A stretch of 64,000 nucleotides of DNA from Thermodesulfobacterium sp. TA1 (GTDB taxonomy: Bacteria; Desulfobacterota; Thermodesulfobacteria; Thermodesulfobacteriales; Thermodesulfobacteriaceae), in contig NZ_CP043908.1 in the NCBI RefSeq assembly GCF_008630935.1, positions 1,116,001 through 1,180,000 of the forward strand, written 5' to 3'. Under the pieces are notes generated by a model. It made no database searches. It was not told the DNA's origin and saw only the letters and a list, made by a program, of their open reading frames with translations. The translations under genes and the position numbers were made by a program. Position 1 is the stretch's first letter. Each line of letters opens with the position of its first letter. Below, one piece after another: positions 59,631 to 64,000 of this stretch.

Positions 59631-60672
59631 GTTTTATAAAGCTACCTGGTAAGACCTGGACCAAACCCTTAAACTCAAGTTCTGTGACAGCCGATAATAC
59701 TTCAGCGGCAGGGAGTTCTATCTTTAACAAAAGATCCTCTAAATGGATAGGATAAGAAGAAAGTAGAGACAAAACCTTTTGCTCTTCTTCGGTAAGGTCT
59801 TTATCATTTTTATTATCTTCTGACTTAAATAAACCAAAAGTTTTTAAATCCTCTGTTATCCCTAAAAAATCTAACAATTCTTCTGGAGAAAAAACCGGCT
59901 GAGCCCCTGATTTGATAAGAAAATGGGTCCCCTCGCTTTGGATAGAAAAAATACTCCCAGGTACCGCAAAAACTTCTTTTCCTTGATGGAGAGCCCATTT
60001 AGCGGTGATAAGCGTCCCACTCTTTGGCCCTGCTTCTACCACCAATATAGCCTCTGAAAATCCACTTATAAGCCTATTTCTTAACGGAAAGTTTTCTTTC
60101 CGCGGGGGGGTTCCTAACGGAAATTCTGAAACCACCGCTCCATACCCAGAGGCAATTTTATTAAATAATGTTTGATTTTCTGGAGGGTAAACAACGTCTA
60201 ACCCTGAGCCTAAAACCGCTATGGTCCTTCCTTCTACCTCTAAGCAAGTTTTGTGGGCTATGGTATCAATCCCTCTTGCAAGACCTGATATTATTACTAC
60301 TCCAGCTTGGGAAAGTTTTTTAGAAAATTTATATGCCACCTCTTTTCCGTAATTAGTAGGTCTTCTTGAACCTATTACCCCAACCGAAGGCGTTATCTTT
60401 TCTAAACTACCTTTTACATAAAGAAAAATCGGAGCATAAGGTATAGCCTTAATTTTATCTGGAAATTCTTGGTCTTCTCTAAAAAAAATTTCTATACCTA
60501 ATTTTTGAGCTTTCTCAAGTTCTTTTAGACCTAACCCTTCTATTTCTTTTAAACTATACCTTTTGTAAGCTAAAATATCTTCTAATGAAATATTTTCTTC
60601 AAAAAATTTAATGGCTTTCAAAAGGTTTCTTTCTTTAAGATAAAAACCCAGCCAAAGAATTTTATCCTTCAT
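59620..60672 (-). CDS. dprA: DNA processing protein A (recombination mediator)
   Basis: Loads RecA on single-stranded DNA taken up during transformation. The Rossmann-like core is complete: VGVIGSRRPTNYGKEVAYKF, VVISGLARGIDTIAHK, VLGSGLDVVYPPENQTLF, EFPLGTPPRKENFPLRNRLISGFSEA, and GALIT-like SGTLITAKWALHQGKEVFAVPG. C-terminal winged-helix-like region (about 285-350). N-terminal helix-hairpin-helix about 30-55. The start overlaps the preceding gene by 11 bases. With pilMNOPQ elsewhere in the window it suggests natural competence is possible. Confidence 0.95.
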   Translation of the reverse strand: MKDKILWLGFYLKERNLLKAIKFFEENISLEDILAYKRYSLKEIEGLGLKELEKAQKLGIEIFFREDQEFPDKIKAIPYAPIFLYVKGSLEKITPSVGVIGSRRPTNYGKEVAYKFSKKLSQAGVVIISGLARGIDTIAHKTCLEVEGRTIAVLGSGLDVVYPPENQTLFNKIASGYGAVVSEFPLGTPPRKENFPLRNRLISGFSEAILVVEAGPKSGTLITAKWALHQGKEVFAVPGSIFSIQSEGTHFLIKSGAQPVFSPEELLDFLGITEDLKTFGLFKSEDNKNDKDLTEEEQKVLSLLSSYPIHLEDLLLKIELPAAEVLSAVTELEFKGLVQVLPGSFIKLKD

Positions 60673-61261
60673 AAGATTTAAACTTTAAGCTTAACCTCTG
60701 GTGGTTTAGGTCAAAGTCTATCAAGGTGGTAAAGCCCTCTAAAAACGTTTTAAGTCTCTCTAAAGAAGGAGGCTCTAAAGTTCTATCCCAACTAAATTCA
60801 AGGAGTTCTCCGTTAATTTTAATCCAAAGCCTTCCCTCTTTTAGACTTAAGAACAAAAGCTCCCCTAAACCACAGAAAAAACCTCTTATAAGATTATTGG
60901 GAAATTTTACTTCTCCTTTTTTTTCTTCTAATATCTCTTTAGCTACATTATGTTTAAAGGTTAAGTCTGCTTCCCAAAAGGCTAAGGCTTCTTCTATAAG
61001 AATTTTCAAATCCCAAGAACTTAGAGAATCATCGTTTAAGTCAGAATAGGCTATTTCTAATCGTTGATTAAGCTTTTTAAGTTGATTAAAAACCTTTTCT
61101 AACCTTTGGGTTAGCTCTTCTTGAGTTAAAGAGGCTTTTTTCATCAAAAGGATTTGAACTTCCAAAAAAGCCCCTTGTAACATTCCCCTTAAATTATGAA
61201 AATATCCTTTGGTTAAACTTCCCAAAGCTAAAGTTTTACAAAAAAAGAGGTCTTCTTTCAT
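60662..61261 (-). CDS. Degenerate histidine-kinase-like protein
   Basis: 199 residues; recognition is weak. The N-terminal helix contains TKGYFHNLRGMLQGAFLEVQIL, which resembles the His-containing dimerisation helix of sensor kinases, followed by a second long helix and a small C-terminal region with strands (EGRLWIKINGELLEFSWD) like a cut-down ATPase domain. N, G1 and G2 boxes are not visible, so ATP binding is doubtful. It is in an operon between recR and dprA, coupled at both ends, so a regulatory role in DNA repair or uptake is only a positional guess. Confidence 0.55.
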   Translation of the reverse strand: MKEDLFFCKTLALGSLTKGYFHNLRGMLQGAFLEVQILLMKKASLTQEELTQRLEKVFNQLKKLNQRLEIAYSDLNDDSLSSWDLKILIEEALAFWEADLTFKHNVAKEILEEKKGEVKFPNNLIRGFFCGLGELLFLSLKEGRLWIKINGELLEFSWDRTLEPPSLERLKTFLEGFTTLIDFDLNHQRLSLKFKSYEG

Positions 61262-61866
61262 TTTTCTTTTAAAAGCTCTCTATAAACTAAAGCCCTTTTA
61301 AGGGTTAAAGGGTCTACAAATTGTAGGTCCATCCCCATCGGAACTCCGCAGGCTAATCTGCTAACCTTTATAGGATAATTTCTCAAGACCTGTAAAATAT
61401 AATTAATGGTAGCTTCACCAGCCAAGGTAGGAGAAAGGGCAAAAATTATCTCTTCTACCCCCCTTTTTTTAACTAAAAAAAGAAGTTTATCTATCTCTAA
61501 TTCTTTAGGACCGATACCTTCTTTAGGAGAAAGTAGATAATGCAATACAAAATAATAACCTTTATATATCCCTGTGTTTTCTATATGAAAAAGGTTAACC
61601 GGATTTTCCACCACACAAAGGGATTTAGCCTCTCGGTTATCATCTTGACAAACCCTACACACTTCATCTTCAGAAAGATTCCTGCAAAGCTTGCACAACT
61701 TTACCTTATACGGCAGTTCTTTTATCAAATCACCTAACGTTTCACAAAAATCAGGTTTAGATAACAAATATAGAGAGATACGGGTAGCGCTTTTTTCCCC
61801 TATGCCTGGAATCTTAGATAAAGATTCTATAAGCTTTTTTAGAGTAAGGGGATAAACCATCGACAT
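61258..61866 (-). CDS. recR: Recombination protein RecR
   Basis: RecFOR-pathway protein that helps RecA load on gapped DNA. Helix-hairpin-helix LSKIPGIGEKSATRISLYLL (about 14-33), four-cysteine zinc finger CKLCRNLSEDEVCRVC (about 56-71) and a Toprim domain with VVENPVNLFHIENTGIYKGYYFVLHYLLSPKEGIGP; the C-terminal segment SRLACGVPMGMDLQFVD is the RecR Walker-B-like motif. 202 residues. dnaX-ybaB-recR order is conserved. Confidence 0.97.
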   Translation of the reverse strand: MSMVYPLTLKKLIESLSKIPGIGEKSATRISLYLLSKPDFCETLGDLIKELPYKVKLCKLCRNLSEDEVCRVCQDDNREAKSLCVVENPVNLFHIENTGIYKGYYFVLHYLLSPKEGIGPKELEIDKLLFLVKKRGVEEIIFALSPTLAGEATINYILQVLRNYPIKVSRLACGVPMGMDLQFVDPLTLKRALVYRELLKEK

Positions 61867-61871
61867 GAGAT

Positions 61872-62210
61872 TTAAAATAATCCTGGGAGGTTAAAACCTC
61901 CGGGAATTTTTAGACCTCCTGTAATCTTTGCCATTTCCTCTTCTATCATTTCTTTAGCCTTTTTCAAGGCTTCGTTTACCCCGGCTAAAATCAAATCCTC
62001 TAACATTTCTTTTTCTTCAGGATTTAAAAGTTCTTTTTCGATTTCTATGGCTAAGATTTCTTGCTTACCGTTAGCAGTAACGGTTACCATCCCTCCACCT
62101 ACCTGAACGGTAACCGTTTTTTCTTCAAGCATCTTTTGAGCTTCTTCTAACTTTTTTTGCATCTTTTGGATCTCTTTCATCATTTGCTGTAACTGGGGTG
62201 GTAGTTTCAT
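61872..62210 (-). CDS. YbaB/EbfC-family nucleoid-associated protein
   Basis: Small DNA-binding protein of 112 residues. Helical N-terminus (QLQQMMKEIQKMQKKLEEAQ), then strands TVTVQVGGGMVTVTANGKQEIL and the helix ending NEALKKAKEMIEEEMAKITGG, followed by the family C-terminus GFNLPGLF. It lies between dnaX and recR in the standard order and starts 3 bases after dnaX. Confidence 0.96.
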   Translation of the reverse strand: MKLPPQLQQMMKEIQKMQKKLEEAQKMLEEKTVTVQVGGGMVTVTANGKQEILAIEIEKELLNPEEKEMLEDLILAGVNEALKKAKEMIEEEMAKITGGLKIPGGFNLPGLF

Positions 62211-62213
62211 ATC

Positions 62214-63728
62214 TTACTCCTTGTTTAATATTTGAATATAAGATATTTTAGCAGAAAGATGGGTTAAAATTTCTTTTACCTCAGGCCTTTCTTTTATCTC
62301 TTCAAGCTTAGGTTGAGGAGAAACCTCTACCTCAACCTCTACAGGCTTCTTAAAAAACTCTTTCATCTTCTCTATAAGTTCATCAAAATATGTAGTATTT
62401 TTTAAATGTTCCTTAACTTTTATATGTAAACGCTGTAAATTAAAGACAGGTGAGGGTAAACTATTAGCGAGACTGTAAAGAATTGGACGGTCTTTTGCAA
62501 GTAGTTCTAAAAAATCTTGCCAAGTTTTTTCAGAAAAAGTTAAAGGTTCTTTTTTTTCTTCAGTTTCTTTAAGTGAAGGTTCAAGGTTTTTATAGTCAAA
62601 AGAAAGGTTAGGTAAAGTCTCTATTTTCTCTATCAATTTGTTTAGAGGAACTAATTTAGCTTGTTCGCAAACCCTTACCAAGGCTAATTCAAACTGCAGC
62701 TGAGGATAACTACTTCTTCTTAATATCTCAAGGTCTCTGGTTAAGCTCTGTAAGATCAGAAAAATTTCCTCTAATTCGTATTCTAAGACTAAATCTCTAA
62801 GAACTGGATTTTGAAAATGCTGGGTATTTTCTTGAGGTAGAGCTTTTGTCAAGAAAAGCTCTCTGAAAAATTCGGTTAGTTTTTCCATAAGATAGATAAG
62901 GTCGGTTCCTTGTTCGTAAACCTTTTGAACAACCTCTAAGGTTTTTTTTAGGTTTTTCTCCAACAAAACTTGAGCTAATTCCTCTATTAACAAGGCTTCA
63001 TGCCATCCAAAGGCTTGAATGACATCCTCTTTGGTATGAGTTCCATAAGCCATAGCCTGGTCTAAAAGTGAAAGGGCGTCTCTTAAACTCCCTTGAGCTT
63101 CTTTAGCGATAAGTTTTAAGGCCTCCTCTTCTATCTGATAACTCTCCTTTTCACAAACGGTTTTTAGATGCTTTATTAATTGAGGAAGGTCAAGCTTTCT
63201 AAAATCATAACGCTGGCACCTAGAAAGGATGGTAGGTAAAAGCCTGTTAGGCTCGGTAGTAGCTAAAATAAAATATACATGAGAAGGTGGCTCTTCTAAG
63301 GATTTAAGAAGGGCGTTTGAAGCCTCTTTAGTAAGCATATGGGCTTCGTCTATGATATAAACCTTGGCTTTACCTCGAGTAGGAGCATATTTAAGGTTTT
63401 CGATGATCTCTCTTATTTGGTCTATTCCTCGGTTTGAAGCAGCATCTATTTCTATAACGTCTACAAAAACCCCACGATTAATCTCTAAGCAGTTAGGACA
63501 TTGATTACAGGGTTCATATCCTTCTATCGGATTTAGGCAGTTTAAAGCCTTAGCTACAAGCCTTGCTACCGTGGTTTTACCTGTTCCTTTTATACCTGAA
63601 AACAAAAGGGCATGAGAAAGCTTACCTAATTTAAGGGCATTGGCTATGGTTTTGACTACATGGGTCTGTCCTACTACTTCTTTAAACGACTGAGGTCTAT
63701 ATCTTCTGGCTAAAACTATATAAGACAT
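62214..63728 (-). CDS. dnaX: DNA polymerase III subunit gamma/tau
   Basis: Clamp-loader ATPase that assembles the replisome. Walker A GIKGTGKTTVARLVA (about 45-59), zinc-binding CLNPIEGYEPCNQCPNC (about 64-80), Walker B IIDEAHML, and sensor-1 region LATTEPNRLLPTILSRCQRYDF with the SRC arginine. Residues past ~360 are the variable tau-like tail. At 504 residues it is a medium-length form. I did not find an obvious slippery frameshift site by eye, so a single product is assumed. The zinc-ribbon gene with the UGA ends 16 bases upstream. Confidence 0.95.
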   Translation of the reverse strand: MSYIVLARRYRPQSFKEVVGQTHVVKTIANALKLGKLSHALLFSGIKGTGKTTVARLVAKALNCLNPIEGYEPCNQCPNCLEINRGVFVDVIEIDAASNRGIDQIREIIENLKYAPTRGKAKVYIIDEAHMLTKEASNALLKSLEEPPSHVYFILATTEPNRLLPTILSRCQRYDFRKLDLPQLIKHLKTVCEKESYQIEEEALKLIAKEAQGSLRDALSLLDQAMAYGTHTKEDVIQAFGWHEALLIEELAQVLLEKNLKKTLEVVQKVYEQGTDLIYLMEKLTEFFRELFLTKALPQENTQHFQNPVLRDLVLEYELEEIFLILQSLTRDLEILRRSSYPQLQFELALVRVCEQAKLVPLNKLIEKIETLPNLSFDYKNLEPSLKETEEKKEPLTFSEKTWQDFLELLAKDRPILYSLANSLPSPVFNLQRLHIKVKEHLKNTTYFDELIEKMKEFFKKPVEVEVEVSPQPKLEEIKERPEVKEILTHLSAKISYIQILNKE

Positions 63729-63744
63729 GTTTATTATTTTAAAG

Positions 63745-63954
63745 CTATTTTGAAAGTTTACAACCGAGGCCTGAAATCCAAGCTTCTTTTAATTTTTCGA
63801 TTTCCTCTTCATATTCCTTAGCCGGTCTTTCTATTCCGCAGGTAAGGCACCTTACCTTCCCTTTTGCTCAGGTTCCTTCTAAAACCGCTTTTCCTCCACA
63901 GTATTTACAAACCAGAAAATCTTCTTTGTGAAAAGTTTGGTCAGGATTTTGCAT
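63745..63954 (-). CDS. Small zinc-ribbon protein with one in-frame UGA (possible selenoprotein or pseudogene)
   Basis: Read through one UGA (63868-63870) the frame encodes 69 residues. CKYCGG at 16-21 and CLTCG at 36-40 make a zinc ribbon; residue 29 is the UGA, in EGT(UGA)AKGK. A charged helix (KEYEEEIEKLKEAW) follows and the end is GLGCKLSK. AAGGA lies 6 bases upstream of the ATG (63954). Frame, codon use and zinc motif continue on both sides of the UGA, so this is not a chance ORF. Starting 10 bases after the UGA the RNA forms an 8-base-pair hairpin (AGGUAAGG/CCUUACCU), a position similar to bacterial SECIS. It is either a selenocysteine gene, a recent nonsense mutation or a base error. 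Confidence 0.6.
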
Positions 63955-64000
63955 GTTTTTTCCTTAAAATTTTATAAAAACCGAGTTACTACATATTCAG

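Follow-up and report, generated by a model that had tools for sequence, protein, structure and literature searches.

A predicted selenoprotein of the NF041197 family in Thermodesulfobacterium sp. TA1 and the two registers of its SECIS-like hairpin

The gene and its neighbors

The window analyzed here is a 64,000-nucleotide stretch of the Thermodesulfobacterium sp. TA1 genome, which consists of a single contig of 1,829,881 bases. Close to the end of the window, the minus strand carries a short gene whose reading frame is interrupted once, by a TGA at codon 29. The gene, its predicted elements, and its downstream neighbor are as follows.

63745..63954, minus strand: predicted selenoprotein gene, a GxU relative of NF041197 (dual CXXC motif small (seleno)protein), 69 codons plus TAG
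63961..63965, minus strand: Shine-Dalgarno sequence AAGGA with a 6-nt spacer, identified by eye
63952-63954, minus strand: start codon ATG, read from the sequence
63898..63909, minus strand: first CxxC (C16-C19), predicted metal knuckle, from sequence and alignment
63868..63870, minus strand: in-frame TGA, codon 29, predicted selenocysteine (Sec), at the same codon in relatives
63841..63856, minus strand: putative SECIS hairpin GGUAAG/CUUACC, 6 bp, GUGC loop, 11 nt after the UGA, on a mainly comparative basis
63838..63849, minus strand: second CxxC (C36-C39), predicted metal knuckle, from sequence and alignment; its codons overlap the SECIS
63760..63762, minus strand: Cys65, close to the C-terminal end, a candidate for the cysteine that resolves Sec29
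63745-63747, minus strand: stop codon TAG, read from the sequence
62214..63728, minus strand: dnaX (DNA polymerase III gamma/tau), a neighbor only, from an NCBIfam dnaX match

The first-pass annotation had placed this gene and its parts (Shine-Dalgarno sequence, ATG, two CxxC pairs, UAG, and a UGA at codon 29) correctly, as a reading of the sequence confirms. The hairpin, which it put 10 bases after the UGA, measures 11 nt from it. The preceding gene encodes L-2-hydroxyglutarate oxidase and ends at 63972, with the selenoprotein gene starting 17 nt later, and dnaX starts 16 nt downstream of the selenoprotein gene.

The proximity to dnaX, which had been carried into the title of the first-pass annotation, is only local synteny within some genomes of the genus, and a functional link was rejected. 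In a clustering of neighbors (ORFs of at least 80 residues, short flanks), the loci with dnaX behind the gene number 8, and all of them belong to the window's genus, where they are spread over 6 genomes; G065 and G203, two further genomes of that genus among those read, fall outside this cluster. The neighbors elsewhere are presumably topA-like genes upstream (17 loci, duplicates included) and a nucleosidase-like gene downstream (16). In other neighborhoods, what we take to be an Mrp-like ATPase lies upstream and what seems to be a relative of phosphoglycerate mutase lies downstream (7 each), and in others again there are convergent genes with an apparent resemblance to dsrP, dsrO, and dsrJ (7, 6, and 3). 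Because the neighbors differ between lineages, dnaX tells little about the function of the gene.

Family membership and conservation of the UGA

The window protein has two CxxC pairs with a Sec or Cys position between them and matches the NCBIfam model NF041197 with 36.7 bits (E 3.5e-9), short of the curated cut-off of 40 bits. The motif at its Sec codon is GxU. NF041197 matches all 52 aligned GxU members at E <= 0.01. All GxU members that were read and are listed in the NF041197 search score below the 40-bit cut-off, so they may end up shortened or missing in automatic annotation.

NF041197 appears twice in a 2026 review, as OS_HP3, with an RxU motif, and as “hypothetical protein DW,” with a GxU motif (PMC13188914). 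DW was reported by deep-Sep from two Desulfosarcina genomes, with Sec and Cys homologues and a SECIS-like structure (PMC12013277). The window subfamily shares with DW the GxU motif, the NCBIfam model, and the occurrence of Sec and Cys forms (PMC12013277; PMC13188914). It is probably DW, an assignment made from the motif and the model and not from the DW sequence SMF39960.1. With OS_HP3, the window protein shares its small size, the two CxxC pairs with Sec or Cys at the same place between them, and a Cys near the C-terminus, which many members have. However, Gly rather than Arg stands two residues before its Sec, and it lacks the C-terminal DR[IL] ending found in many RxU members. We assign a probability of about 0.93 to the reading that the window gene is a selenoprotein gene of the known NF041197 family, in its GxU form. 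The family is already catalogued and thus is not a new kind of selenoprotein, contrary to the “possible new selenoprotein” of the first-pass annotation (NCBIfam NF041197; OS_HP3 and DW in PMC13188914). The available portions of PMC13188914 and PMC12013277 give no function for it.

The first-pass annotation had made the selenoprotein reading depend on sel genes elsewhere in the genome. The genome holds selA (612 bits), selB (399 bits), selD (349 bits), and a tRNA-Sec with a TCA anticodon. Judged from these four components, the organism is able to make selenoproteins. The selD gene, which lies outside the window (G000:C1:1092579-1093511, L065), likewise contains an in-frame TGA (SGU), with a 10-bp hairpin downstream of it, and the SelD of this genome is predicted to be a selenoprotein itself.

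The UGA is widely conserved. A protein search returned matches in 30 of 198 genomes of the phylum and in 29 of 41 genomes of the order. Within the order, 33 of 35 match rows contain one TGA; in two of the 33 there is a TAA as well, at which the gene itself terminates. The two rows lacking a TGA are frames of 782 and 253 residues, whose length indicates that they are not this gene. Reading identified 28 of the 33, one from each of 28 genomes, as the present gene with its U at the matching position; the remaining five are L160, an RxU-type row, and four rows left unread. Outside the order, 29 distinct genes were read with the UGA at the same codon. The NF041197 model itself matches 112 of 395 genomes of the phylum, several of them twice, and the genomes that were read for both copies have one RxU copy and one GxU copy. 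In an alignment of the window protein with 51 of 70 references (A1), the only invariant columns across the 52 GxU members are C16, C19, residue 29, C36, and C39, with Sec written as C.

Cys is the only residue that a sense codon supplies at position 29 in the members read. The first-pass annotation had looked to Cys in homologues as support and to any other sense codon as a refutation; the former was found and the latter was absent among the members read. Two GxU members have Cys (L034 in G036 and L113 in G408), as do all 24 sense-codon RxU members that were read (27 listed). Of the 29 sense-codon rows in the model search, 26 were read (24 RxU and 2 GxU); L089 is without a reading, and G195 and G390 were left out. 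Each of the two genomes with a Cys GxU gene has in addition an RxU copy that contains a TGA (L092 and L097), and this places the Sec/Cys exchange in a Sec-using lineage. The window gene thus has its UGA at a conserved position that is occupied by Cys in some homologues. Ten comparisons over 34 codons downstream of the UGA gave pN/pS values of 0.06-0.39, though synonymous sites are close to saturation. These ratios indicate, at the sequence level, that protein-level selection goes on 3′ of the UGA.

Eleven of 58 entries were left out before counting. For L028, L105, and L125, the script picked the wrong UGA or found none. L121, L124, L126, and L129 are divergent; they have two CxxC pairs and U-Q-G after the Sec codon and are possibly a third form of the family. 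In L103, L106, L111, and L127, an additional type (RRUSG) nearer to RxU, U-S-G comes after the Sec codon and the first knuckle reads CxC rather than CxxC. L160 was kept out of the order set, and L166 and L167 are repeats of other loci. Identical 45-nt stretches were counted once, which gives 27 order genes and 29 other GxU Sec genes.

The hairpin and its two registers

Published bSECIS rules specify a loop of 3-9 nt that has a G in its first two positions, a stem of 4-16 bp, a UGA-to-loop distance of 16-37 nt, and an MFE <= -7.5 (PMC13188914, Fig 2 legend). The window hairpin conforms to them, with 7 contiguous pairs by script (6 in the conserved helix), the 4-nt loop GUGC, a spacing of 17, and a local MFE of -8.4 over 32 nt, which is that of the best fold of the stretch and not of the hairpin by itself (-5.7 for the 16-nt hairpin alone). 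Taken alone, the hairpin is within chance, and its significance comes from comparison. Synonymous recoding recreates the same six pairs in 14% of cases, and the local MFE against synonymous codons gives p = 0.051. In RNAfold, the check that had been proposed for the hairpin, another register of the same stretch is slightly more stable (-10.1 vs -8.9 kcal/mol, a difference of 1.2 kcal/mol). An Rfam scan of 60000-64000 returned 11 matches at E <= 10, with no SECIS among them and none at the gathering score.

Relatives were scanned for hairpins with a stem of at least 5 contiguous bp including at least 3 GC pairs, a loop of 3-9, a G in the first two loop bases, and a spacing of 16-37, settings modeled on the published bSECIS rules with no MFE limit. 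Hairpin counts are set against the number expected from synonymous codons and are given with the MFE against synonymous codons; they come from related, non-independent genes and are uncorrected for phylogeny.

Order genes: hairpin in 27/27, 5.1 expected; median MFE z -2.09, p < 0.05 in 15/27
Other GxU Sec genes: hairpin in 26/29, 9.5 expected; median MFE z -1.46, p < 0.05 in 12/29
RxU Sec genes: hairpin in 5/5, 1.1 expected; median MFE z -1.91, p < 0.05 in 3/5
RxU Cys genes: hairpin in 6/23, 4.6 expected; median MFE z -0.22, p < 0.05 in 4/23
GxU Cys genes: hairpin in 0/2, 0.0 expected; median MFE z -1.88, p < 0.05 in 1/2

The three UGA genes outside the order that fail the hairpin test are L115, L116, and L128. 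The median z of the GxU Cys genes is as low as that of Sec genes, which counts against the Sec reading; the MFE tests on single sequences are modest in their discrimination and less sharp than the hairpin scan. With the sel genes present, the UGA conserved and replaced only by Cys in the members read, and the hairpin in excess in Sec genes but at or near chance in Cys relatives, the UGA at codon 29 very probably encodes Sec. Codon usage in the stem is also constrained. Between the window gene and eight family relatives, none of 37 stem codons changed vs 125 of 260 other identical-residue codons. All six pairs form in 25 of the 27 order genes, and codon 6 is AGG in those 25. In each of them, the third bases of the Val and Leu codons pair with one another, GTG with CTC in 15 and GTA with CTT in 10, a covariation that may come partly from genome GC. 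Together with the conserved UGA and the sel genes, these comparative hairpins bear out the earlier reading of a selenoprotein gene with a SECIS-like hairpin.

The hairpin does not occupy the same place throughout the family. It lies about 5 nt earlier in the order than elsewhere, a small point that is new here. Counted from the UGA, the early helix of the order joins positions 12-17 and 22-27, and the late helix outside the order joins positions 17-22 and 28-33. At least five of the six late pairs form in all 29 genes outside the order and all six in 18, and in none of these genes do five or more early pairs form. Within the order, six late pairs form in none of the 27 genes and five or more in one. 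When columns were shuffled, none of 5000 shuffles reached the observed pairing for either helix (early, 155 of 162 cells paired vs a shuffled mean of 147.3; late, 163 of 174 vs 156.6). In the late set, Val at codon 6 is GTC in 20 of 21 cases, compared with 3 of 27 for Val at codon 5 (Fisher p 2.6e-9). The third base of codon 6 is C in 26 of 29 genes, whether the residue is Val, Ile, Ser, Thr, or Arg. In two order members, L149 and L153, the fitting hairpins lie farther downstream, and their loops are 24 and 27 nt from the UGA. The occurrence of one UGA with two hairpin registers suggests that the Sec codon stayed while the SECIS moved. Searches of the open-licence PMC literature, in the portions available and with other points as their aim, returned no description of such a shift in this family.

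The conserved codon and the comparative hairpins bear directly on other explanations of the TGA. One of these is that an ordinary zinc-ribbon gene has suffered a nonsense mutation or been misread in sequencing, which the first-pass annotation held to be equally possible. Within one genome, nothing sets a lone UGA in a short ORF apart, and the window hairpin alone is within chance. However, the presence of the UGA at the same codon in 28 of 41 order genomes and in 29 distinct genes outside the order, and the protein-level selection on codons 3′ of it, make this explanation almost certainly wrong. Another is a true stop that yields a 28-residue peptide. Termination does compete with Sec insertion, and RF2-mediated termination at UGA is mentioned in the literature (PMC4513850), but the second CxxC is invariant, pN/pS is low past the UGA, and the Cys members run through in one frame, so a functional stop is extremely unlikely.

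Two further alternatives concern what the codon and the protein are. The reading frame alone is silent on the residue inserted, and a UGA read as Trp or through some other suppressor would leave the same frame. This has next to no chance of being right given that the full Sec machinery is present, that only Cys takes the place of the UGA in the members read, and that the hairpin is at or near chance in Cys members. The protein could instead be a Lar-type restriction-alleviation zinc ribbon with an acquired Sec. Lar zinc ribbons (PF14354 and TIGR03655) have a similar CxxC ... CxxC pattern, and weak matches to them occur in 36 of 52 members with Pfam and in 26 of 52 with NCBIfam. The names and descriptions of the Lar models make no mention of Sec. 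The window protein falls below the Lar cut-offs (22.3 vs 28.6 for PF14354 and 17.5 vs 39.6 for TIGR03655), and no phage or restriction gene is found among the five named neighbors, which makes a Lar identity very unlikely. A GxU selenoprotein of the NF041197 family is the preferred reading.

Predicted fold and a possible role for Sec29

The AlphaFold2 model of the window protein has a mean pLDDT of 71.6, with strands at 22-26, 33-36, and 42-44 and a helix at 49-62. Structural matches to it are weak. The best Foldseek match has an E of 0.2, VIA-align gives a best Z of 3.7 (rmsd 5.0 over 68) and a Z of 2.8 for NrdR (rmsd 1.9 over 36), and a PDB profile search returned only weak matches (best E 0.0061). 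No weight is given to the absence of a family from the VIA-align results. Several of the weak structural matches among the listed chains are recurring proteins that we take to be zinc-ribbon proteins. The sequence and the alignment support the earlier observation that Sec lies between two intact CxxC pairs. Cys 16, 19, 36, and 39 are likely zinc or iron ligands. Sec29 is placed by the model in the turn between the first two strands, and for that reason it is probably a free selenol rather than a metal ligand.

Many members have an additional Cys. Among 60 distinct members (58 Sec and 2 Cys), 50 have it 20-45 residues C-terminal to residue 29, mostly at offsets 31-39, at or past the end of the C-terminal helix; in the window protein it is Cys65. 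Ten members have no Cys in the tested range; among these, L021 is cut by the contig end and L013 has a Cys at offset 47. This Cys, whose exact position varies near the end of the C-terminal helix, is a candidate partner for Sec and is also a small new point.

The conserved RNA and the machinery suggest that SelB with Sec-tRNA-Sec would bind the hairpin after the UGA and insert Sec29 instead of allowing termination. The protein would then fold, according to a model of moderate confidence, as a small zinc-ribbon-like domain with a C-terminal helix. Sec29 could serve as a redox or electrophile-reactive residue whose oxidized form is resolved by Cys65 or by a partner protein, a tentative proposal with somewhat less than an even chance of being right. 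A wider proposal joins the protein and the RNA, with the GxU form as a zinc-ribbon selenol redox switch, in which a reversible selenenylsulfide between Sec29 at the tip of the ribbon and the variably placed Cys toward the helix end would change the protein's binding surface, and with a SECIS that was relocated within the coding sequence in the order under an unmoved UGA. This combination is doubtful as a whole.

For the organism, the selenoprotein reading means that one apparent stop in a Thermodesulfobacterium genome is false. For the family, it shows that the present NCBIfam cut-off misses a Sec-containing form of NF041197. The frequent extra Cys gives this family a specific redox hypothesis that can be put to the test. 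One UGA with two hairpin registers in related genes is a natural test of SECIS movement, and relocation of the SECIS within coding sequence, if true, would make SECIS turnover traceable at a single Sec codon.
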